Positions 4,491 through 11,295 of a stretch of DNA of 13,359 bases are shown here, one piece after another. The notes under the pieces are model-generated. The model saw nothing but the letters and a program-made list of their open reading frames with translations, ran no database searches and had not been told where the DNA came from. Every line of letters starts with the position of its first letter. Within the stretch, counting starts at the first letter, position 1. Source of the DNA: Candidatus Methanoperedens sp. (GTDB lineage: Archaea > Halobacteriota > Methanosarcinia > Methanosarcinales > Methanoperedenaceae). Both the position numbers and the translations under genes were made by a program. The stretch is taken from contig JAPMTY010000011.1 of NCBI GenBank assembly GCA_026552835.1, positions 1 through 13,359 on the forward strand, given 5' to 3'.

Positions 4491-4508
4491 GGAAAAACAA
4501 AATGCGTT

Positions 4509-4625
4509 AACAGCGAACTTATACTAACTCAGATTTAAATAGTTTTAACTGTTCGGCGCGCCGATAGAAGTCGATGCAACCGTCTCACCTCAAAAACCAC
4601 AGAGCGCACAGAGGACACAGAGAAA
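4509..4625 (+). repeat. Composite intergenic repeat, left module copy 1 plus short repeats
   Basis: The left module spans about 4509-4580: 'ttaacagcgaact', 'actaactcagatttaaatag', 'ttttaactgtt', the ten-base palindrome CGGCGCGCCG (4554-4563), 'atagaag' and CGATGCA (4572-4578). It is followed by 'accacagagcgcacagagg' type short repeats (4595-4623). No right module is attached to this copy. The same arrangement recurs at 6266-6376. Confidence 0.75.
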
Positions 4626-4689
4626 AAAAATATTGGAAAAAAAGTTTAACTTTGTTCATTGGAATGATTATTAACAGACACAAAACATT

Positions 4690-4985
4690 AACAGCGAACT
4701 AATACGAACTCGTACGAACTCTGGAGTCAAACATTTTTCAACTGTCCAGCGCGCCGATAGAAATCGATGCAGCCGCAACATATCGAAATTATAAACCACA
4801 GATGAACGCCGAATTACCGCGACGCACACGGATGACACGGATTTGACGGATTTCCACGGATAATTAAAATCCGTGTGATCAGTGTCATCCGTGCAATCCT
4901 TGTTCCAACAGCATCGGCGCAATAATTTAATATTAATCAAATATATATATATGGCGCTTTTACTGCAAATGGTAAAAGAACTCAA
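4690..4985 (+). repeat. Composite intergenic repeat, copy 2, with left module, nested palindromes and right module
   Basis: The left module is at 4690-4779, again starting with 'aacagcgaact' and ending in CGATGC (4765-4770). The middle (4794-4903) is built of 'cacggatgacacggat' type repeats folded into nested perfect inverted repeats. The right module starts GCATCGGCGC (4911), has an AT stretch and ends GGCGC near 4963, lacking the GC-rich tail of the other copies. The left end CGATGC and right start GCATCG are inverted repeats of each other. Confidence 0.75.
4827..4893. repeat. Nested perfect inverted repeats (12-bp and 7-bp arms)
   Basis: CACGGATGACAC at 4827-4838 is the exact reverse complement of GTGTCATCCGTG at 4882-4893. 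Inside, CACGGAT at 4855-4861 pairs with ATCCGTG at 4869-4875 across a 7-base A/T loop. The whole would fold as a long stem-loop in RNA or single-stranded DNA. No gene ends just before it, so a simple terminator role is not evident. Confidence 0.8.
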
Positions 4986-5002
4986 AACAAGCCAGATTTA
5001 AT

Positions 5003-5025
5003 CTTTATAAACGATAAATATTTAA
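5003..5025 (+). promoter_or_regulatory. Possible TATA box(es) upstream of the 34-residue ORF
   Basis: Two A/T-rich TATA-like strings (ctttataaac and gataaatatttaa) lie 35-55 bases before the ATG at 5059. Either could serve a short-leader transcript, but the region is AT-rich and the call is weak. Confidence 0.3.
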
Positions 5026-5058
5026 TGTCTAAATGGTATTTCTAAATGTTGATAGTAA

Positions 5059-5163
5059 ATGTCCGAAGAAAAATACCTGGAAGACCCCTTTTTCAAGATG
5101 CGTACTTTCCAGACGTCAGAAGATTTATCAGAAATGCATGATGAAATCTACGACGAGGACTGA
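5059..5163 (+). CDS. Possible 34-residue acidic small protein
   Basis: This short ORF begins MSEEKYLEDPFFKMRTF and ends with an acidic HDEIYDED. A stop codon (taa) lies directly before the ATG, so this is the only start. The composition is unlike random translation of this AT-rich DNA: 12 of 34 residues are Asp or Glu, and hydrophobic residues are spaced in a helix-like way (LEDPFFKMRTF...LSEMHDEIYDE). There is no clear Shine-Dalgarno. It is convergent with the minus-strand membrane protein whose stop is at 5172, leaving an 8-base gap. I do not recognise a family. It could be a genuine small regulatory or binding protein or chance. Confidence 0.4.
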   Translation: MSEEKYLEDPFFKMRTFQTSEDLSEMHDEIYDED

Positions 5164-5171
5164 ATTCTCAT

Positions 5172-6251
5172 TCAAACAACCACGGTTTTCATGGTTTGTG
5201 TTTCCATCACGTTATTATTGACAATAAGCTGGATTGTAATCGAATAATCTCCCGCGGGTCTTACACCACTCACTTTTTCAGGAATCGTAACTTGCACAGG
5301 TATTTCAACAGAATCCCCCTGTTTTAGCTCGTAATCAAAGTTGCTTGTAAACTCTTTTTTCGAAATGTCACCCATCCATTCAAACTTGTGGTTCACAGCA
5401 AGCGTTTTTATGGAAAACTGTTTTACTGGAACGGTTCCGGTATTCAGGAGGTATATCCTTGCATTTACAGTATCCCCGGCGCGATAGCTTCCTGCGATAT
5501 CAATCCTTGTTATCTTGATTTTCGTCACAGTTTCAAGATTGAAACTCCCGCTTCCGATATCGTTGCCATGGAAAGTCGCTTTCCATGCATGAGCGTCGGC
5601 GGCAAGGCCGGAAACGGTCATTTTCCTGCATTCCGGAATTGTACCCATGTCTTTTCCGTCCAGGATAACTGAGACGCCGTCTATGTAATGAGTTGCATCA
5701 TTGTATTTTGTCATGAAAACGCGTTCGTTGGTCATGCTCCCTGTTACTGCTTCAGCCAGAATGCCATCGGTTGAGTTCACGACGATAATCCGGGCTTCAT
5801 CCTGAAGTGAATCATTGCTCGATACTGCTTTTAAGATAACTGCGTTCGTACCGGGCGCAAAAGTATAAACAAGGTTCCTATCCGTACCTATGGTTTTATT
5901 GTCGATTGACCATTCAAGCTTCGCAGTCCGAAGGTTTGTAGTCGCTGACAGGTGAACTTCTGTATCCTTCCAGACAACCCTGCTGCAGCCGATACTCACG
6001 CTTGGTTTGAAGACGTAACTGGAAGGTGCGTTCGCGACCGAAGTATCATTCACCGCAATTTCAGGCGTTGTGTATATATCCCATAAACCATACGCTGCAG
6101 CCCCTTCAATAATAAAGATAAGTATCACAGCTACCTGTTTTTTTGTTATTTTTTTCAGGTCAAACTTCAATTTAAATGTCTCCTGGAAATCAGAAAGAAA
6201 TCCTGTTTCCTTAAACTTATCTCTTTTAAAATCTCTTCGGGCTTGCACCAT
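5172..6251 (-). CDS. Single-pass membrane protein with Ig/PKD-like and CARDB-like extracellular domains
   Basis: This is a 359-residue protein of unknown function. Residues 1-38 are strongly basic (RRDFKRDKFK, LKKITKK) and would stay in the cytoplasm. Residues 39-58 form one membrane helix, giving an N-in, C-out topology. The outer part looks all-beta: about 85-158 resembles a PKD/Ig-like domain (WKDTEVHLSATTN, LEWSIDNKTIGTD, LVYTFAPGTNAVILKAV), and about 243-359 resembles a CARDB/NEW3-like domain (GDTVNARIYLLNTGTVPVK, GDSVEIPVQVTIPE, AGDYSITIQL). Asn-x-Ser/Thr sites occur (NDTS, NDS, NST). Such proteins in methanogens are usually envelope or adhesion components. The likely ATG has no Shine-Dalgarno, and repeat copy 3 begins about 15 bases upstream, so its promoter, if any, lies in or behind the repeat. 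Confidence 0.75.
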   Translation of the reverse strand: MVQARRDFKRDKFKETGFLSDFQETFKLKFDLKKITKKQVAVILIFIIEGAAAYGLWDIYTTPEIAVNDTSVANAPSSYVFKPSVSIGCSRVVWKDTEVHLSATTNLRTAKLEWSIDNKTIGTDRNLVYTFAPGTNAVILKAVSSNDSLQDEARIIVVNSTDGILAEAVTGSMTNERVFMTKYNDATHYIDGVSVILDGKDMGTIPECRKMTVSGLAADAHAWKATFHGNDIGSGSFNLETVTKIKITRIDIAGSYRAGDTVNARIYLLNTGTVPVKQFSIKTLAVNHKFEWMGDISKKEFTSNFDYELKQGDSVEIPVQVTIPEKVSGVRPAGDYSITIQLIVNNNVMETQTMKTVVV

Positions 6252-6265
6252 ATGGGGAGGCGCAC

Positions 6266-6376
6266 GGAACTCGTACGAACTCAGAGTTAAATAGTTTTAA
6301 CTGTTCGGCGCGCCGATAGAAAGCGATGCAATCAACCCACATCAAAAACCACAGAGCGCACAAAGGACACAGAGAC
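6266..6376 (+). repeat. Composite intergenic repeat, left module copy 3 plus short repeats
   Basis: This is the clearest left module: 'ctcgtacgaactcagag', hairpin arms AGTTAAA (6285-6291) and TTTAACT (6296-6302) with a 4-base loop, palindrome CGGCGCGCCG (6306-6315), then CGATGCA (6324-6330). 'accacagagcgcacaaagg' type repeats follow to 6376. The matching right module is not adjacent; the nearest begins at 6902, beyond the DUF4242 gene. Confidence 0.8.
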
Positions 6377-6441
6377 CTATTTTTCCAAGAAATTTTTATT
6401 GATGCACAAAAAACCTACCGTATTTGAATTACCGACTTCGT

Positions 6442-6483
6442 TAAAAAAAAACGAGGCATCTCCAGTTCGGATGCTCATGCCTC
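6442..6483 (-). terminator. Hairpin plus T-tract terminator of the DUF4242 gene
   Basis: Read on the minus strand, GAGGCAT (6483-6477) and ATGCCTC (6459-6453) form a 7-bp stem with a 17-base loop, followed within two bases by nine consecutive T residues (plus-strand A-run 6443-6451). It lies 25 bases after the DUF4242 stop. Both a hairpin and the U-tract that archaeal RNA polymerase mainly responds to are present. Confidence 0.7.
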
Positions 6484-6507
6484 TAAGGATGCCTTTCGAA
6501 GAACGAC

Positions 6508-6747
6508 TCATTTACGAGTAGAATTTATCTCATAAACCCAGTCGATCTTAACTTTCGCCTTCGCATGGTGCTTCTCAACGGCTGCCTTGTTAGGAGCATC
6601 AAGGATGCACCATATTTTGTTGTCTTTCTCGCTGAAAATGATCTCGTGGTGTGTGACCCCGAATTCATCCGCAGGCGCATTCTGAAGTTCTCGAAGTTGC
6701 TCTGGTTTTAAGGGCTTCATCGCATGCTGATCAATGTATTTTGGCAT
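6508..6747 (-). CDS. DUF4242 small protein, putative nickel-binding
   Basis: This 79-residue soluble protein has the layout of the DUF4242 family, whose structurally studied member SCO4226 of Streptomyces binds nickel. Recognisable parts are MPKYIDQHAM at the start, EFGVTHHEIIFSEKDNKIW (the central strand with two adjacent histidines), CILDAPNKAAVEKHHAKA (the signature DAP...A helix with a further HH) and IDWVYEI at the end. Five histidines and one cysteine could ligate metal. A strong Shine-Dalgarno (GGAGGTGA), a TATA box and a hairpin/T-tract terminator make it a self-contained transcription unit. Nickel handling would fit an organism with CODH/ACS and methyl-CoM reductase, but metal and role here are inference from the family. 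The gene lies between a left and a right module of the intergenic repeat. Confidence 0.8.
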   Translation of the reverse strand: MPKYIDQHAMKPLKPEQLRELQNAPADEFGVTHHEIIFSEKDNKIWCILDAPNKAAVEKHHAKAKVKIDWVYEINSTRK

Positions 6748-6753
6748 TACTCT

Positions 6754-6761
6754 TCACCTCC
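6754..6761 (-). promoter_or_regulatory. Strong Shine-Dalgarno (GGAGGTGA) of the DUF4242 gene
   Basis: GGAGGTGA is a full match to the 16S rRNA 3' end and lies six bases before the ATG at 6747. It implies a leadered, well-translated mRNA, unlike the leaderless-looking genes nearby. Confidence 0.8.
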
Positions 6762-6808
6762 CCCTCCATGGGTCTTATTTCCCTCTCAATAAGTTAGTTT
6801 AACTTTTG

Positions 6809-6819
6809 TAATATATAGT
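6809..6819 (-). promoter_or_regulatory. TATA box of the DUF4242 gene
   Basis: On the minus strand this reads ctatatattac. Transcription would start near 6787, giving a leader of about 40 bases that contains the Shine-Dalgarno. Confidence 0.55.
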
Positions 6820-6859
6820 CTTATGCGTCTATTCTTTTTCGTGATATGTGGGCGCCGAG

Positions 6860-7121
6860 TCGAGAACCGTTAGGTTTCGGCTTTGATGAACGCAGATTTG
6901 CTGCATCGGCGCCAACAATTTAATATTAAAAAAGTGATATATTTGTGGCGCTTTTCACCGCAAAGACCGCAAAGTTGCGGCGCATTTTAGTAACATATTA
7001 ATGCGCCGATGAGCGGCTTCACGCGACCGGGCGCCCCGCTTGAGCGCAGGACTGTCGCCTCCCGCACGCAGGCGGATGCGGGCTTGTTCCGCACGGGCGG
7101 CGCACGTCTTGGCACGTATAG
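6860..7121 (+). repeat. Composite intergenic repeat, right module copy (R2)
   Basis: The copy opens with 'gagaaccgttaggtttcggc', shared in part with 9244-9266, then 'gatgaacgcagattt'. The right module follows from TGCATCGGCGCC (6902) through an AT-rich stretch to TGGCGC and 'accgcaaagaccgcaaag'. GGCGCATT (6979-6986) pairs perfectly with AATGCGCC (7000-7007). A GC-rich tail contains CCCGCA...TGCGGG and two 'gcacgt' strings, ending 'ggcacgtatag'. It aligns closely with 10104-10319. No ORF of note is present. The 440 bases between the DUF4242 and HEAT-like genes hold this copy, the DUF4242 promoter and an unexplained 66-base end. Confidence 0.8.
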
Positions 7122-7187
7122 AATTCTTGAAATGGGTTATAAAGCCTGAAATGGAACGCCAAAATTCATGAAATCTCAGCTCAAAAA

Positions 7188-7784
7188 CTAACCGCTGAGC
7201 ATATATATTTCTATCGCATTAATTAAGTCTTTTCTCTCCTCATCTGTAAACTCCAAAATCTCCCAACCAATCCACCTATACTTGCTCTGATCAATATTGA
7301 AATTATTCAACCCGCCAATTCTTATGAAAGAAGCAATTGCAAGGTCTCCCACGTGTGGTTTAACCTCGAATCCGTCTGCATGGATGAGATATTCATGTGT
7401 ATTTTTTAGGAAGGGGAGAAGGGATTTTAGGACTTTGTCTTTATCTCTTATGAAGTTCTCCGGTTTATTATATTCCCCGCTTGAAGAGCGATAACGATAG
7501 TTGCCGAGGAGGTACGCAGCGAGGCCATTAAGATCATAGTCATTCATAGCTAAAATGAGTGTTTCTTCACCTTTCGGGTCGTCGACATGAGCGAGAATAA
7601 AAAGTAAGGCTTTTCTGAACTGCGGGTCGCTGCTGCTCTCCATCCAGGTCAGTAGTTCGGGCAAGACTTGGGTACCCATGCCAATTATTTGACTCATTGC
7701 GGGCGATGCTGATATGGGATAGTAAGCCTTGTAACCTGAAGTGAAGTTCTTATCTGAAGCGAGACGCTGGAATTCGCCCCGCAT
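7188..7784 (-). CDS. Signal-less HEAT-like domain paralogue of the upstream lipoprotein
   Basis: This 198-residue protein aligns over its whole length with residues about 50-248 of the lipoprotein encoded just upstream; shared blocks include GYKAYYP, SASP-x-MSQ, SSSDPQ, LNGL-AYLLGNY and GDLAIASFIRIGG. The helical pairs and 'DP...EETLI.A..D' pattern resemble HEAT/PBS-lyase-like repeats, a protein-binding fold. It lacks the signal peptide, Pro/Ser/Thr linker and cysteine-rich C-terminal domain, so it would stay in the cytoplasm. It starts 17 bases after the lipoprotein stop with a good Shine-Dalgarno (GGGGTGA at 7793-7799, eight bases before the ATG), so the two are co-transcribed and it is probably expressed rather than a dead fragment. 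DNA similarity is also high, indicating fairly recent tandem duplication. One possibility is an immunity-like or decoy partner of the exported paralogue; there is no direct evidence. Confidence 0.7.
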   Translation of the reverse strand: MRGEFQRLASDKNFTSGYKAYYPISASPAMSQIIGMGTQVLPELLTWMESSSDPQFRKALLFILAHVDDPKGEETLILAMNDYDLNGLAAYLLGNYRYRSSSGEYNKPENFIRDKDKVLKSLLPFLKNTHEYLIHADGFEVKPHVGDLAIASFIRIGGLNNFNIDQSKYRWIGWEILEFTDEERKDLINAIEIYMLSG

Positions 7785-7801
7785 TAATTACTTCACCCCG
7801 T

Positions 7802-9184
7802 TCACTTAGTTTTCGTATTCCCAGCCTGGCCGTTCCATTTATCTGCAGCCTTCTGGAAATTGTCAGAGGGTTTGTCACTATTTCCCTCGCCAGACGGCGT
7901 TATGCTTCCGTCATCATTGACTTTGAAGCCCCAGGTTATACAGCCGTAGCACTTCCCGATATCTGTACCTCCAGCGCAGATAGCACAGGTCTCAAATTCG
8001 AATTTATAACCATGGAAACCACTTGGTTTATCCCACATCCAAGAATCATCTCCACCAGGTCTGCCGTTGTGATTATTGTCCTGATCGCCACCTGTATTGT
8101 CTGTACCATAATAAGGGCTGGTCATGTCATCGTATCGGTCAAGTGACCATCCATCGGGTGTAGCGCGACCCGCCATCCGACCCCCTGGTCCCCCAGGGTA
8201 GACATGGACGCCTGAAGGGTCAGTTATCCTGACGATTTGGATAAAGAGTATTTTTGTGCAATCCAGAGTAGCTTTAGCTGTAAAATTCAATGTAACTTCA
8301 GAGGAATTCTTGGTAGCAGGAATTTTTTCTTTAACAAAGGTGAATGTGCCATTGGCTACCGTTAGATTGGTCACATTTTTATTTGCGGGTGGAATCTCCC
8401 CTTTTATTCCTCCATCAGGTGGAGGATATGCCTCACCTCCACCCGACTTTTCATAGAAAGTTTCTGAAGCCTGCAATAGATCCTTCCTGTCGCTTTCACT
8501 TAACTCAGGGATCTCCCAACCAATCCACCTATACTTGTTCTGATCAATATTGAAATTTTTCACGCCACCGATCCTTATGAACGAGGCAATCGCCAAGTCT
8601 CCAACTTGAGGGCGAGCTTCGAAATTATCTGCTCTGATAGGATATAGCGTAGAATTTCTGAGAAGAGGAAAGAGGGAATTTAATACATTTTTTCTATCTC
8701 TTACGAAGCTCTCAGGCCTATTATAATCTCCACTGGCTGGACGGTAAAGGTAGTTGCCAAGAAGATATGCCGAGAGACCATTGAGATCATTGTCCTTCAA
8801 GGCCGAAATAAGTGTCTCCTCAGATCTCGGGTCGTTAATTTGTGCAATTATAAATAGTAAGCTTTTCCTGTACTGTGGGTCACTGCTGCTATTCATCTGT
8901 GCCAATAATTCAGGCATGTCTTTCGGGCCAATTCCTATTAGTTGGCTCATCGTGGGCGAAGCAGATAATGGATAGTATGCCTTGTAACCGAAACTGAATT
9001 CTTTGTCTTCAGCCAGAGAACGAAGCAGAGTATCCACGTTTACTTGAGGCGTAGCGGTGGGTGAAGAAGTCACGGTTGAAGTCGGTGAAGGAGAAGGAGT
9101 TGGAGGTGGTGGAGTAACACAACCCGATAAAATAAGAATAACTGCTAAGAGTACAACAAGTTTCCATTTTTTTAAAATCGCCAT
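7802..9184 (-). CDS. Exported lipoprotein with HEAT-like domain and cysteine-rich C-terminal domain
   Basis: This is a 460-residue protein of unknown function. Residues 1-21 form a basic, hydrophobic lipoprotein signal ending in the lipobox LSGC, so Cys22 would be lipidated and the protein anchored outside the membrane. A Pro/Ser/Thr-rich linker (23-48) follows, then a helical HEAT-like domain (about 50-248, duplicated in the next gene) and a Pro/Gly-rich hinge (249-266). The C-terminal domain (267-460) is beta-rich with a glycine/asparagine-rich stretch and the motif C-AI-C...C-YG-C (Cys400, 403, 412, 415), then ITWGFKVNDDG. That last part reminds me of C-terminal domains in proteins linked to extracellular contractile injection systems; this is from memory and weak. 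An in-frame GTG at 9196 is possible, but GGTGA five bases before the ATG at 9184 and the lipoprotein N-terminus favour 9184. Confidence 0.75.
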   Translation of the reverse strand: MAILKKWKLVVLLAVILILSGCVTPPPPTPSPSPTSTVTSSPTATPQVNVDTLLRSLAEDKEFSFGYKAYYPLSASPTMSQLIGIGPKDMPELLAQMNSSSDPQYRKSLLFIIAQINDPRSEETLISALKDNDLNGLSAYLLGNYLYRPASGDYNRPESFVRDRKNVLNSLFPLLRNSTLYPIRADNFEARPQVGDLAIASFIRIGGVKNFNIDQNKYRWIGWEIPELSESDRKDLLQASETFYEKSGGGEAYPPPDGGIKGEIPPANKNVTNLTVANGTFTFVKEKIPATKNSSEVTLNFTAKATLDCTKILFIQIVRITDPSGVHVYPGGPGGRMAGRATPDGWSLDRYDDMTSPYYGTDNTGGDQDNNHNGRPGGDDSWMWDKPSGFHGYKFEFETCAICAGGTDIGKCYGCITWGFKVNDDGSITPSGEGNSDKPSDNFQKAADKWNGQAGNTKTK

Positions 9185-9216
9185 TCCAATCACCACTTTT
9201 ATGCATGATTTTGACG

Positions 9217-9228
9217 TTATATATACTT
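9217..9228 (-). promoter_or_regulatory. TATA box of the lipoprotein/HEAT-like operon
   Basis: On the minus strand it reads agtatatataac, centred about 38 bases before the ATG at 9184. Transcription would start about 10-12 bases before the ATG, just including the GGTGA site. It is expected to drive both minus-strand genes. Confidence 0.6.
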
Positions 9229-9243
9229 ATCCATTCCAAGTCT

Positions 9244-9453
9244 GAGAACCCTGAAGGTTTCAGCACGATGAACGCAGATTTGCTGCATCGGCGCCAATAA
9301 TTTAATAGTAATAAATTGATATATTTGTGGCGCTTTTCACCGCAAAGTTCGCAAAGACCGCAAAGCTGAGGGCAGTATAGTAACCTATTAATGCGCCGGT
9401 GAGCGGCTTCACGCGACCGGGCGCCCGCCTGAGCGCAGACGCCTCCCGCACCA
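9244..9453 (+). repeat. Composite intergenic repeat, right module copy (R3), 3'-truncated
   Basis: The copy begins 'gagaaccctgaaggtttcag' and 'gatgaacgcagattt' like copy R2, then TGCATCGGCGCC (9284) with the AT stretch, GTGGCGC, 'accgcaaagttcgcaaag' and the GC-rich part to 'cctcccgcacc'. The last 70 or so bases of the full module, including CCCGCA...TGCGGG, are missing. The opening overlaps the transcript start area of the minus-strand operon. Together with the two flanking promoters this explains the 336-base gap before the DUF4258 gene. Confidence 0.75.
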
Positions 9454-9498
9454 AGGTTAAGTCATCTATTTGGTGTTTTGTCTTTTGACGATCGTGAG

Positions 9499-9509
9499 CT
9501 TTTATATAA
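9499..9509 (+). promoter_or_regulatory. TATA box of the DUF4258/DUF2283 pair
   Basis: ctttttatata-like sequence (cttttatataa) is centred about 28 bases before the ATG at 9533. The predicted RNA start coincides with the ATG, and no Shine-Dalgarno is present, so the mRNA is probably leaderless. Confidence 0.6.
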
Positions 9510-9532
9510 CATCCCATCTAAAATAACGCTGA

Positions 9533-9778
9533 ATGGTTAAAGTTAGCTTCACCAAACATGCCGAAGATATGCTGATAGAGAGAACATTTACAAAAGAAGA
9601 AATTATCTCTGTCATAAGGAATCCTGATCGGCAGGTAACTGATGAGGTTGAAGCTGATGTTTGGCATGCATTTAAAAAGATTGGGAAAAAAGTTTTGAGA
9701 ATAGTTATTAAAGGAAGAGAAGAACCATATACAGTGATAACAATGTTTTATGATAAAAGGTTGAGGAATCAAAGATGA
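9533..9778 (+). CDS. DUF4258 family protein, putative RelE-fold toxin
   Basis: This 81-residue basic protein begins with the DUF4258 signature: FTKHAEDMLIERTFTKEEI (His8, Arg17 region) followed by VIRNPD. The middle and end are two strands, KKVLRIVIKGRE and PYTVITMFYD, ending in a basic tail. DUF4258 proteins have a BrnT/RelE-like fold and are often annotated as RNase toxins of type II toxin-antitoxin modules. The downstream DUF2283 gene overlaps it by four bases (ATGA), as expected for a translationally coupled pair. The toxin-first order is common for this family. Activity is not demonstrated by sequence; some members may be non-toxic. Confidence 0.8.
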   Translation: MVKVSFTKHAEDMLIERTFTKEEIISVIRNPDRQVTDEVEADVWHAFKKIGKKVLRIVIKGREEPYTVITMFYDKRLRNQR

Positions 9779-9990
9779 GAATTAAAGTCGATCTGGAAAG
9801 TGATGCGCTCTACTTCAGAATCAGCGAAGACCCGATAGAAGAGAGCGAGGAAATTAAGAAGGGGCTTATCGTTGATTACGATGCCAGTGGCAAGGTTGTA
9901 GGAATAGAAATTCTTAACATAAAAGAAAAATTCAAGATGGAAGATTTGACGGGTCTTAAATTGGAAATGCCTTCAGTTGCAGCAGCGTAA
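9775..9990 (+). CDS. DUF2283 family protein, putative antitoxin
   Basis: This 71-residue acidic protein has the DUF2283 layout: YD-like start (VDLESDALYFRI), a variable acidic loop (EDPIEESEEIKKG), LIVDYDASGKVVGIEIL as the signature strand-turn-strand, and a short helical end. It overlaps the DUF4258 stop by four bases, so it is translated by reinitiation from the same transcript. DUF2283 genes are very often next to DUF4258 genes in archaea and cyanobacteria and are thought to neutralise them. It lacks an obvious DNA-binding domain, so autoregulation by this protein alone is not apparent. The left module of repeat copy 4 begins within a few bases of its stop codon. Confidence 0.8.
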   Translation: MRIKVDLESDALYFRISEDPIEESEEIKKGLIVDYDASGKVVGIEILNIKEKFKMEDLTGLKLEMPSVAAA

Positions 9991-9994
9991 GGGC

Positions 9995-10319
9995 TTACGT
10001 ACGAACTCAAAGTTAAATATTTTTTAACTGTACGGCGCGCCAATAGAAGCCGATGCAACTTTATCGAAATTATAACCGCAGATAAACGCAGATGAACGCA
10101 GATTTGCATCGGCGCCAATAATTTAATATTAATAAAGTGATATATATGTGGCGCTTTTCACCGCAAAGAACGCAAAGTTGAGGCGCATTTTAATAACATG
10201 CACCGATGAGCGGCTTCACGCGACCTAGCGCCCGCTTGAGCGCAGGATGCCGCCTTACCGCACGCAGGCGGATGCGGGCTTGTTCGCACCTTCAGGCGGC
10301 GCACGTCTTAGCACGTATA
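9995..10319 (+). repeat. Composite intergenic repeat, complete copy 4 (left, middle and right modules)
   Basis: This is the fullest compact copy. The left module (9995-10060) holds 'acgtacgaactcaaag', AGTTAAA...TTTAACT, CGGCGCGCC and GCCGATGCAA. The middle is 'accgcagataaacgcagatg' plus 'aacgcagat' (10074-10103). The right module runs from TTGCATCGGC to 'agcacgtata'. GCCGATGCAA (10049-10058) and TTGCATCGGC (10104-10113) are a perfect 10-bp inverted repeat with a 45-base loop. The GC-rich tail has CCGCACGCAGGCGGATGCGG-type hairpins. No ORF is present. Confidence 0.85.
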
Positions 10320-10385
10320 CAATAATTGATACAAAATTGTAAAATCGGTGTTTTAAAAAAATCTTAAGCGAGACCAATGGAATGA

Positions 10386-10483: not shown

Positions 10484-10489
10484 GGAGGT
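10484..10489 (+). promoter_or_regulatory. Shine-Dalgarno (GGAGGT) of the HEPN-like gene
   Basis: GGAGGT is six bases before the ATG at 10496 and fixes the start. Confidence 0.75.
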
Positions 10490-10495
10490 ATATTC

Positions 10496-11071
10496 ATGGG
10501 CATTGAAGAAAAACCTAAGCTTGTCCACTGGAATTATTTTTTAGCATTTGATTCGGATGTTGAGAAATTATCGAGATATATAGAGTTTACAAAAAAAAAT
10601 GAAAAGACTTATTCGATAGAATTGGTACGCCTACTTTTATCTGCAGCTTCAGAAGTTGATGTGGTCGCTAAACTCCTATGTAACAAAGTGAAGCCTGATG
10701 AAAATGCTGGAAATATGGAAGACTATCGAAATATTCTGAATCCGATTTTTCCAAAAATTAGAGATATGAAGATACAAATTCGACGCTATGGGTTAGACCT
10801 AACTCCTTGGGAAAAATGGAACGAAAATAAAGCTCCTATCTGGTGGAAGGACTACAACGGTGTTAAGCATCAGAGAGATATAAATTTTCAGAAAGCCAAT
10901 CTCAAGAACACTTTAAATTCTATTGCTGGGTTATATTGTTTGTTGCTGTATTATTACAGAGATGAGGCAGAAAAAGGTAATTTAATTCCTTATCCTAATT
11001 TGTTCTCTGTTAGTAGAAAATTCCAAAGTAATACTATTTCAGTGCAAAGTCGACCGCTTTACAAGTTATAG
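10496..11071 (+). CDS. HEPN-like all-helical protein of unknown function
   Basis: This 191-residue soluble protein looks almost entirely helical. Helices are suggested at 12-31 (WNYFLAFDSDVEKLSRYIEF), 42-62 (LVRLLLSAASEVDVVAKLL) and 131-156 (NLKNTLNSIAGLYCLLLYYY). Between them lies WWKDYNGVKHQR (116-127), which resembles the 'W..YN.vKHdR' stretch of HEPN-type proteins before the last helix; Lys118, His125 and Arg127 could be the polar set of a HEPN RNase site, although the textbook R-x4-6-H is not exact. HEPN proteins are frequent in toxin-antitoxin and abortive-infection systems. No nucleotidyltransferase partner is adjacent. It sits alone downstream of repeat copy 4, with a strong Shine-Dalgarno. 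Treat the HEPN label as a hypothesis from pattern. Confidence 0.6.
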   Translation: MGIEEKPKLVHWNYFLAFDSDVEKLSRYIEFTKKNEKTYSIELVRLLLSAASEVDVVAKLLCNKVKPDENAGNMEDYRNILNPIFPKIRDMKIQIRRYGLDLTPWEKWNENKAPIWWKDYNGVKHQRDINFQKANLKNTLNSIAGLYCLLLYYYRDEAEKGNLIPYPNLFSVSRKFQSNTISVQSRPLYKL

Positions 11072-11118
11072 GATTATCATATCCTCGATGATTTGTCTCA
11101 ATATTCTACATAAAATGC

Positions 11119-11175
11119 TGGCGGGGCGCCTGAGCGTGGGGGTACTCCTGTTCTTGCTCATATACAATAATTGAC
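11119..11175 (+). repeat. Probable degenerate remnant of the right-module tail
   Basis: A short GC-rich patch ('ggggcgcctgagcgtggggg') in otherwise AT-rich DNA, followed by 'atacaataattga', recalls 'gcgcccgcttgagcgcagg' and 'atacaataattga' at 10228-10332. The match is patchy. Confidence 0.4.
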
Positions 11176-11295
11176 CGTCAAAATTGGGAGATTGATTTAT
11201 ATGAGAGTCGTATAAAATTCCAGTTTATAATTATAATAATAGTTCTTGGAACTTAGTATGAAATGATAGACTATATTGAAACATCAATTTGTCGT

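Follow-up and report, generated by a model that had tools for sequence, protein, structure and literature searches.

Fixed-polarity arrays of gene cassettes are known from integrons, which need the integrase IntI and attC sites with boxes of the consensus RYYYAAC ... GTTRRRY, and whose cassettes are often toxin-antitoxin genes. Miniature inverted-repeat transposable elements (MITEs), repetitive extragenic palindromic (REP) sequences and bacterial interspersed mosaic elements (BIMEs) are known as short, stem-forming, intergenic, multi-copy repeats. Clusters of attC sites without an integrase (CALINs), for which PMC9668308 requires two attC sites less than 4 kb apart, are reported there from archaea too; the main text of that paper contains neither Methanoperedens nor any word beginning with Methanosarcin-. 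Borg repeats, from extrachromosomal elements of Methanoperedens, are described in the available sections of PMC11208441 as perfect tandem units in genes and in intergenic DNA. Here we describe a repeat, R, with a 56-nt core in a 13,359-nt stretch of Candidatus Methanoperedens DNA (contig JAPMTY010000011.1; hereafter the window, meaning this whole stretch), where the repeat region lies between cooC and ilvD, and in other genomes of the genus. R cores occur in co-oriented clusters with toxin-antitoxin cargo, the units between them change order and keep their polarity, and some have recently been exchanged between species. Tentatively, and with slightly less than even confidence, we read the R core and its companion repeats as an element that, in Methanoperedens, marks off small accessory genes in directional arrays, the units of which would be exchanged by recombination between direct repeats. 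No description of such arrays was found in the Methanoperedens literature covered, including the portions seen of PMC11208441 and PMC9674854, most subscription papers lying outside that coverage.

The arrays resemble integrons and CALINs in that small accessory genes lie between co-oriented repeats a few kilobases apart, change order, pass between species and keep their polarity. They differ in holding gene families of both polarities, some running with R and others against it, and in that R was not seen to travel with a unit. The attC box pair was absent from all 87 R contexts (the core with 120 nt to either side, read in both orientations), where shuffled sequences average 1.85, and the integron integrase model TIGR02249 gave no match over cut-off in the 19 genomes with R clusters. 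Membership among the integrons was rejected on these grounds: no attC boxes, no integrase over cut-off in the cluster genomes, and a repeat not seen to move with its unit. TIGR02249 exceeds its cut-off in 2 of the 31 genus genomes, a set with many incomplete assemblies, and neither of the two has an R cluster (G046, contig C157, 739-1404, and G047, contig C5, 3211-3909; assemblies 77% and 63% complete), and these matches could be real archaeal integrons or contamination. Defence islands and hotspots, as far as the partial sources describe them, likewise gather accessory defence genes between conserved chromosomal genes, whereas the arrays have a specific co-oriented repeat between units and kept unit polarity. 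R shares with MITEs and REP/BIME repeats all the properties named above; unlike them, it is clustered in islands and strictly co-oriented there, and no transposition hallmark was found. The Borg tandem repeats, on the same partial account, share with R a repeat-rich DNA linked to these archaea, but copies of R are spaced apart, with genes in the intervals.

Co-oriented R clusters across the genus

A covariance model of the R core (Rp), built from 12 sequences of the window and of genomes G045, G016, G002 and G005, was run against a set of 31 Methanoperedens genomes (G, C and L numbers denote genomes, contigs and loci). At E ≤ 0.01 it gave at least 119 matches in 24 of the 31, a minimum since scoring was confined to 150 candidates per genome; a strict pattern search (up to 3 mismatches) found far fewer, 7 R cores in 4 of 31 genomes, along with 39 cores of a second repeat, L, in 13 of 31. 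Neighbours within 5 kb were present for 78 of the 119 R cores, in 19 genomes, and all 55 such neighbouring pairs are co-oriented, so that the clustering known for CALINs is found here with R cores and not attC sites. In most clusters mapped, R copies alternate with small gene units, and some neighbouring copies have no evident gene between them. The sequence-only reading of the window had allowed that its repeats might be ordinary residents of nearly all intergenic regions. This is not the case for R: at E ≤ 0.1 the model found no match in 36 loci (512 kb) of non-array DNA around cooC and ilvD from Methanoperedens and family members, and none in 34 loci (475 kb) outside the genus. The R core thus does not behave as an ordinary dispersed (REP-like) repeat.

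The arrays hold toxin-antitoxin pairs, restriction and other defence-like genes, and toxin-antitoxin families are the commonest Pfam matches among the small gene units of R clusters. A random 150 of the 205 open reading frames (ORFs) in and near arrays included PIN (11 members), PIN_3 (10) and PIN_2 (9), overlapping models that may count one protein more than once, D12 methylase (7), UPF0150 (7), aspartyl protease (6), DUF5615 (4), HicB-like (3), DUF433, DUF4258 and TumE (2 each), DUF2283 (1) and two members of DDE_Tnp_1; most ORFs match none of these families. Some of the 205 are open frames that lie within repeats, and before sampling 10 exceed 320 aa. None of the cargo families is among the 25 commonest of 163 families in a control sample of 150 of 251 ORFs, which was limited to ORFs of at most 320 aa (251 of 352).

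Order differs in 12 of the 14 genome pairs that share at least three segments (the four shared by G045:C25 and G001:C136 stand in the order 3,1,4,2 in the latter). Orientation to R is kept in 211 of 211 shared array segments, compared with R cores and 30 nt on each side masked, some of these segments being non-coding repeat stretches; at the protein level polarity to R is kept in all 172 pairs from different genomes (27 hand-listed families, at least 40% identity), 39 of which are copies or fragments of D12 methylase. Few shared segments span an R core (6 of 77, against 24.8 under a uniform null), and segment ends lie within 100 nt of R in 59 of 148 cases, against 30.7 under the same null.

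Several further features were noted in these arrays. Short frames related to the C-terminal part of D12 adenine methylase recur beside R in L314, L316, L319 and L324, and longer D12 genes stand at arrays of G005, G001, G024, G019 and G017. In L162 (G016:C34, 9774-12234) a complete L-R composite adjoins a DHH-family-like gene, with TIR-like and SLATT-like genes beyond it (by eye), a group that is likely a defence cluster. R copies of G006 adjoin trp genes (by eye).

Repeat modules and gene units of the window

The sequence-only reading had described one composite repeat bordering every unit, always in plus orientation. Its positions, plus strand and alternation with genes held good, whereas the composite resolved into two separate modules, L, of about 70-110 nt, and R, consisting of Rp (the 56-nt core), Rm and Rd. 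The copies in the window, assigned by sequence comparison or by covariance-model score, are as follows.

4506-4593, plus strand: L1, then a CACAGAG-type repeat (sequence comparison); L and R both absent here in G001 (L031) and G016 (L034)
4681-4790, plus strand: L2, then a CACGGAT-type hairpin (sequence comparison)
4910-4963, plus strand: R1, Rp core only (60.2 bits); L032 carries a single R at this site
6263-6345, plus strand: L3; in L032 the matching L is directly adjoined by a complete R, with no gene between
6885-7132, plus strand: R2, Rp core (6902-6957) with Rm and Rd (85.5 bits)
9267-9475, plus strand: R3, Rp core (9284-9339) with Rm and a truncated Rd (79.4 bits)
9991-10064, plus strand: L4 (sequence comparison)
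10105-10332, plus strand: R4, Rp core (10105-10160) with Rm and Rd (86.6 bits)
about 11118-11205, plus strand: a weak, degenerate Rd-tail-like stretch to the right of the HEPN-like gene, absent from the sequence-only reading (sequence comparison)

The repeat families of the window (61, 95 and 109 nt) are 70-94% identical, far beyond chance. Its R cores score 60-87 bits, and because the window copies are part of the model, their E-values are no independent test. L and R form a composite only as L2-R1 and L4-R4 in the window; solo copies of L, Rp and Rd all exist, and L and R lie in opposite orientation in G001:C70 and G016:C134, which argues that they are independent modules. The whole composite as a single element was therefore rejected, its modules being found apart and in other arrangements. 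Rfam gave no match for the repeat as an RNA family, single-sequence folds of the window copies were no better than those of shuffled sequences (z = -1.04, 0.45 and -0.81), plasmid and phage records had no match to the repeat, and viral contigs had no exact match to the L or R pattern.

Between and beside these modules lie the following genes and gene remnants.

1286-2368: SIR2-like gene, flanked by cdhC and cooC and found at this position in L044 (G007) as well
5058-5163, plus strand: antitoxin gene remnant (vapB-like, by eye) with an internal deletion, the toxin gene gone; pair open in L032, L034 and L229
5172-6251, minus strand: membrane-protein gene, not laterally young; position shared with L032 and L034
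6203-6262, no strand assigned: junction that runs from the end of a thioredoxin-like gene (by eye) through an Rd remnant up to L3; gene open in L034
6508-6747, minus strand: PF14026 gene, acquired laterally; block 6508-6844 common to G044 at 91.5%
7188-9196, minus strand: two tandem related genes, lipoprotein/HEAT-like (7188-7784 and 7802-9196), 70% identical in nucleotides to each other over 300 nt
9533-9990, plus strand: DUF4258 and DUF2283 pair, an exchanged unit; block 9442-9992 is 94.5% identical to G002
10496-11071, plus strand: HEPN-like gene, lateral; 87.8% nucleotide identity to G006 over 10486-11023

Pfam bore out the assignments of DUF4258, DUF2283 and PF14026 (the last of which we take to be the former DUF4242, the name used below). 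Other names given from sequence fared less well: the HEAT match of 7802-9196 stays under the Pfam cut-off (21.8 vs 27.7 bits) and 7188-7784 has no Pfam match; the membrane-protein gene has none over cut-off, and the HEPN-like protein none at all, so that both keep descriptive labels here. Among the 31 genus genomes there is no close relative of the larger HEAT-like protein, whose sole match is in G008 (31% over residues 376-461). The Rd-tail-like stretch beyond the HEPN-like gene is 79.6% identical over 49 nt to the tail beside an Rd in G002 (E 1e-5) and matches the window's own R4 tail only at E 0.79; because of it, the comparison suggests that the HEPN-like unit, too, was once bordered on both sides.

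The age of units was gauged by pS, the synonymous differences per site between the window and the genome carrying the nearest copy; all comparisons are of the window with relatives, whose assemblies are mostly fragmented. For the DUF4258/DUF2283 pair, pS to G002 is 0.089, against 0.526 for cooC, 0.371 for ilvD and 0.573 for cdhC (p 3e-13 to 1e-7; cooC p = 3e-13), and for DUF2283 alone pS to G023 is 0.190, against 0.471 for ilvD (p = 6e-4). The DUF4242 gene (0.109 to G044, ilvD 0.679; p = 3e-13) and the HEPN-like gene (0.295 to G006, against 0.618-0.652; p 2e-7 or less) point in the same direction, and by these synonymous differences the pair, the DUF4242 gene and the HEPN-like gene are younger than the divergence of the species. 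Not every copy is young: the pair in G007 has a pS of 0.611, and for the DUF4242 gene the difference to G015 is not significant. The SIR2-like gene, at 0.225 to G007, has far fewer synonymous differences than both flanking genes (0.421-0.628; p about 1e-5 or less), pointing to exchange of this gene alone. The 94.5% block that contains the DUF4258/DUF2283 pair starts in Rd and ends just before L4, with R-type sequence on both sides in both genomes. Genus-wide, pS was lower than that of ilvD from the same two genomes in 134 of 180 gene pairs and not lower in 46, the 180 having been preselected at 70% or more nucleotide identity and including at least 6 core or resident genes; extreme cases are a HicB-type gene of G012 and G022 (0.077, ilvD 0.672; p = 4e-19) and DpnII of G017 and G019 (0.222, ilvD 0.727; p = 7e-25).

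The same sites in related genomes

The cooC protein of the window is 97% identical to that on JAPZAN010000019.1. Downstream of cooC the window carries L1 and L2-R1; the same site has a single R in L032 (G045) and neither L nor R in L031 (G001, the nearest genome in the comparison set) and L034 (G016). The vapBC-like pair at this place (by eye) is open in L032, L034 and L229 (G002) and is a toxin-less remnant in the window; the antitoxin frame downstream of cooC in L031 also looks shortened (by eye). Two other species (L032, L034) share the position of the membrane-protein gene that follows, which G001 and G002 lack there. Beyond it the window continues with L3, the DUF4242 gene and R2, whereas in L032 a complete L-R, its two modules not separated by a gene, precedes two genes related to the TumE/TumA-type pair of a G013 array.

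On the ilvD side, the gap between rpl12 and ilvD measures about 110-120 bp in G007 and G042 and about 1.6 kb in G001, where it holds L, Rp and Rd modules and a 155-aa ORF; we count these as empty and filled sites in support of the array reading. Since rpl12 was not found beside ilvD in the other ilvD loci examined, their adjacency is not the general order of the genus. Both the cooC and the rpl12-ilvD sites differ between genomes, with junctions that fall in degenerate companion repeats. R copies and differing accessory genes lie upstream of ilvD in G045 and G002, and the DUF4258/DUF2283 pair itself is upstream of ilvD in G002, with a partial copy likewise in G023. A position of the G002 pair elsewhere in the chromosome was considered and rejected, as contig G002:C6 ends in the ilvD start and so places the pair in the same neighbourhood as in the window. 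Because about 55 kb separate cooC from ilvD on a single G005 contig, the window may be a junction of the two neighbourhoods, made within repeats. It is a short member of the array class, its R accompanied by L and Rd modules, and probably lies at such a junction.

Presence or absence of R or L at such orthologous sites would also be expected if both were short non-autonomous mobile elements, MITE- or REP-like with a transposase in trans, that prefer accessory islands and leave the genes as bystanders. Solo R, L and Rd copies fit this, as do transposase-like genes near some arrays (by eye; G005, G002, G007 and G044) and the two DDE_Tnp_1 members of the ORF sample. Strict co-orientation within clusters and absence from the 512 kb of related DNA do not fit it, however, and no terminal inverted repeats or target duplication were recognised at the cooC site (by eye); we regard mobility of this kind as very improbable.

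The companion repeats are imperfect 7-10-nt repeats of the types CGCAGAT, CACAGAG, CACGGAT, CGCAAAG, ATCCTGT and ACGAACTC, some forming hairpins and often standing beside R or L. They occupy the following positions, and occur in many relatives' loci too.

1165-1206, 4590-4620, 4794-4893 and 10074-10106 of the window: imperfect 7-10-nt companion repeats

The CGCAGAT, CACAGAG, CACGGAT and CGCAAAG-type stretches between L and R are a different and far more widespread kind of repeat, and the CGCAGAT-type companions, unlike the R core, do behave as an ordinary dispersed intergenic repeat. A search with the full L4-R4 composite matched 31 of 40 genomes, among the matches listed mostly through the CGCAGAT part and with other families included; because this widespread repeat dominated the matches, that search could not count R. 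No relevant paper was found for typical strings of the companion repeats. By eye, similar hairpin-like stretches of another type adjoin DUF4242 and HEPN-like genes from different genomes.

L233, about 1340-1400; L230, about 7180-7240; window, 6430-6500: GTCACGAACCTC...GGCATC-type stretches

Proposed recombination between direct repeats and its alternatives

The mechanism that we favour is one in which blocks of R and companion repeats in direct orientation would recombine, through RadA-type homologous or short-homology exchange. Such recombination would remove or insert the DNA between two direct copies and never invert it, and the repeat would stay at its site while the gene content turned over. 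Loss and gain of units in this way is our best guess because it fits the co-orientation, the kept polarity, the reordering and the repeat-only sites. The idea that the window's repeats are cassette borders is partly supported, in this form: as a pattern that extends beyond the window, R marks where small units have been exchanged, with clusters co-oriented, order changed at kept polarity and several units young. As a mechanism the cassette border stays hypothetical, and against it stand the vertical membrane-protein gene and the lack of co-inheritance of R. R marks the joints, and exchange inside R itself, rather than in the adjacent companion repeats, is putative.

A number of results weigh against our interpretation. 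Order is kept in 2 of the 14 genome pairs, and two distant family members have the opposite polarity (1 of 6 retropepsin-like, 1 of 3 TumE), neither within a pair at 40% identity. The HEPN-like and SIR2 shared blocks stop at the gene, and that of the DUF4242 gene stops about 40 nt short of R2. Against a null of random intergenic positions the enrichment of segment ends near R is modest, at 43 of 98 within 60 nt (33.2 expected, p = 0.02), or 43 of 94 with R masked (31.2 expected, p = 0.007), and cases with both ends near R are not enriched at 88% identity (3 vs 1.5, p = 0.18). Moreover, where two genomes share a unit, the R copies beside it exceed random R pairs in mean identity by 0.009 on the left (n = 85, p = 0.03) and by 0.004 on the right (n = 54, p = 0.45); being barely more alike than any R pair, they give no visible sign of moving together with the unit. 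Near cooC, gain of repeats went with loss of genes, and the repeats came in without cargo. Additionally, the pS of the membrane-protein gene to G045 (0.278) is close to that of core genes (0.201-0.273), and by this measure the gene evolves as they do and is not laterally young.

Much of this would follow if R and its companions sat passively in gene-poor, fast-changing defence islands, multiplying by local tandem duplication without a role in gene movement, while genes were gained and lost through illegitimate or homologous recombination of the ordinary kind in intergenic DNA that tolerates it. Accumulation of this kind is a serious rival, favoured by the absence of co-inheritance of R with units, the modest end-point enrichment, the vertical membrane-protein gene and the cargo-free gain of repeats at cooC. 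We nevertheless consider it somewhat unlikely, given that R is absent from the 512 kb of related non-array DNA and that 55 of 55 co-oriented pairs and 172 of 172 kept polarities are unexpected if inversion is allowed.

The identity of the repeats themselves raises another difficulty for recombination between direct repeats. R cores within one array average only 74-85% identity (10 arrays with at least four copies each). At that identity they are poor substrates for plain homologous recombination, and a dedicated recombinase becomes conceivable. R could then be the recognition site of a site-specific recombinase, in an integron-like system of its own kind whose units move as circles. Directionality, kept polarity and reordering are consistent with this, as is the core stem, where 7 of 11 pairs show changes on both sides and covariation is 0.150 against 0.127 in shuffles, in an alignment fitted to that structure. 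The reading seems to us distinctly improbable, however, because no recombinase was seen accompanying the arrays (by eye only, on part of the maps), R is not inherited with the unit, and the integron integrase did not exceed its cut-off in any of the 19 cluster genomes. More broadly, no recombinase or transposition hallmark was found, the integron integrase being the only one sought systematically. That the R core is the recombination site of a dedicated cassette system independent of integrases, with directional toxin-antitoxin and defence arrays exchanged between species in fixed orientation by machinery not yet described, is unlikely in our estimate.

Under the direct-repeat interpretation that we prefer, as under any in which genus-wide archaeal arrays are exchanged without IntI or attC, the arrays would be a second route by which toxin-antitoxin and defence genes are stockpiled and traded. 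They would show how methane oxidisers renew their defences, and the 56-nt R core would offer a simple sequence handle for finding defence and toxin-antitoxin genes.

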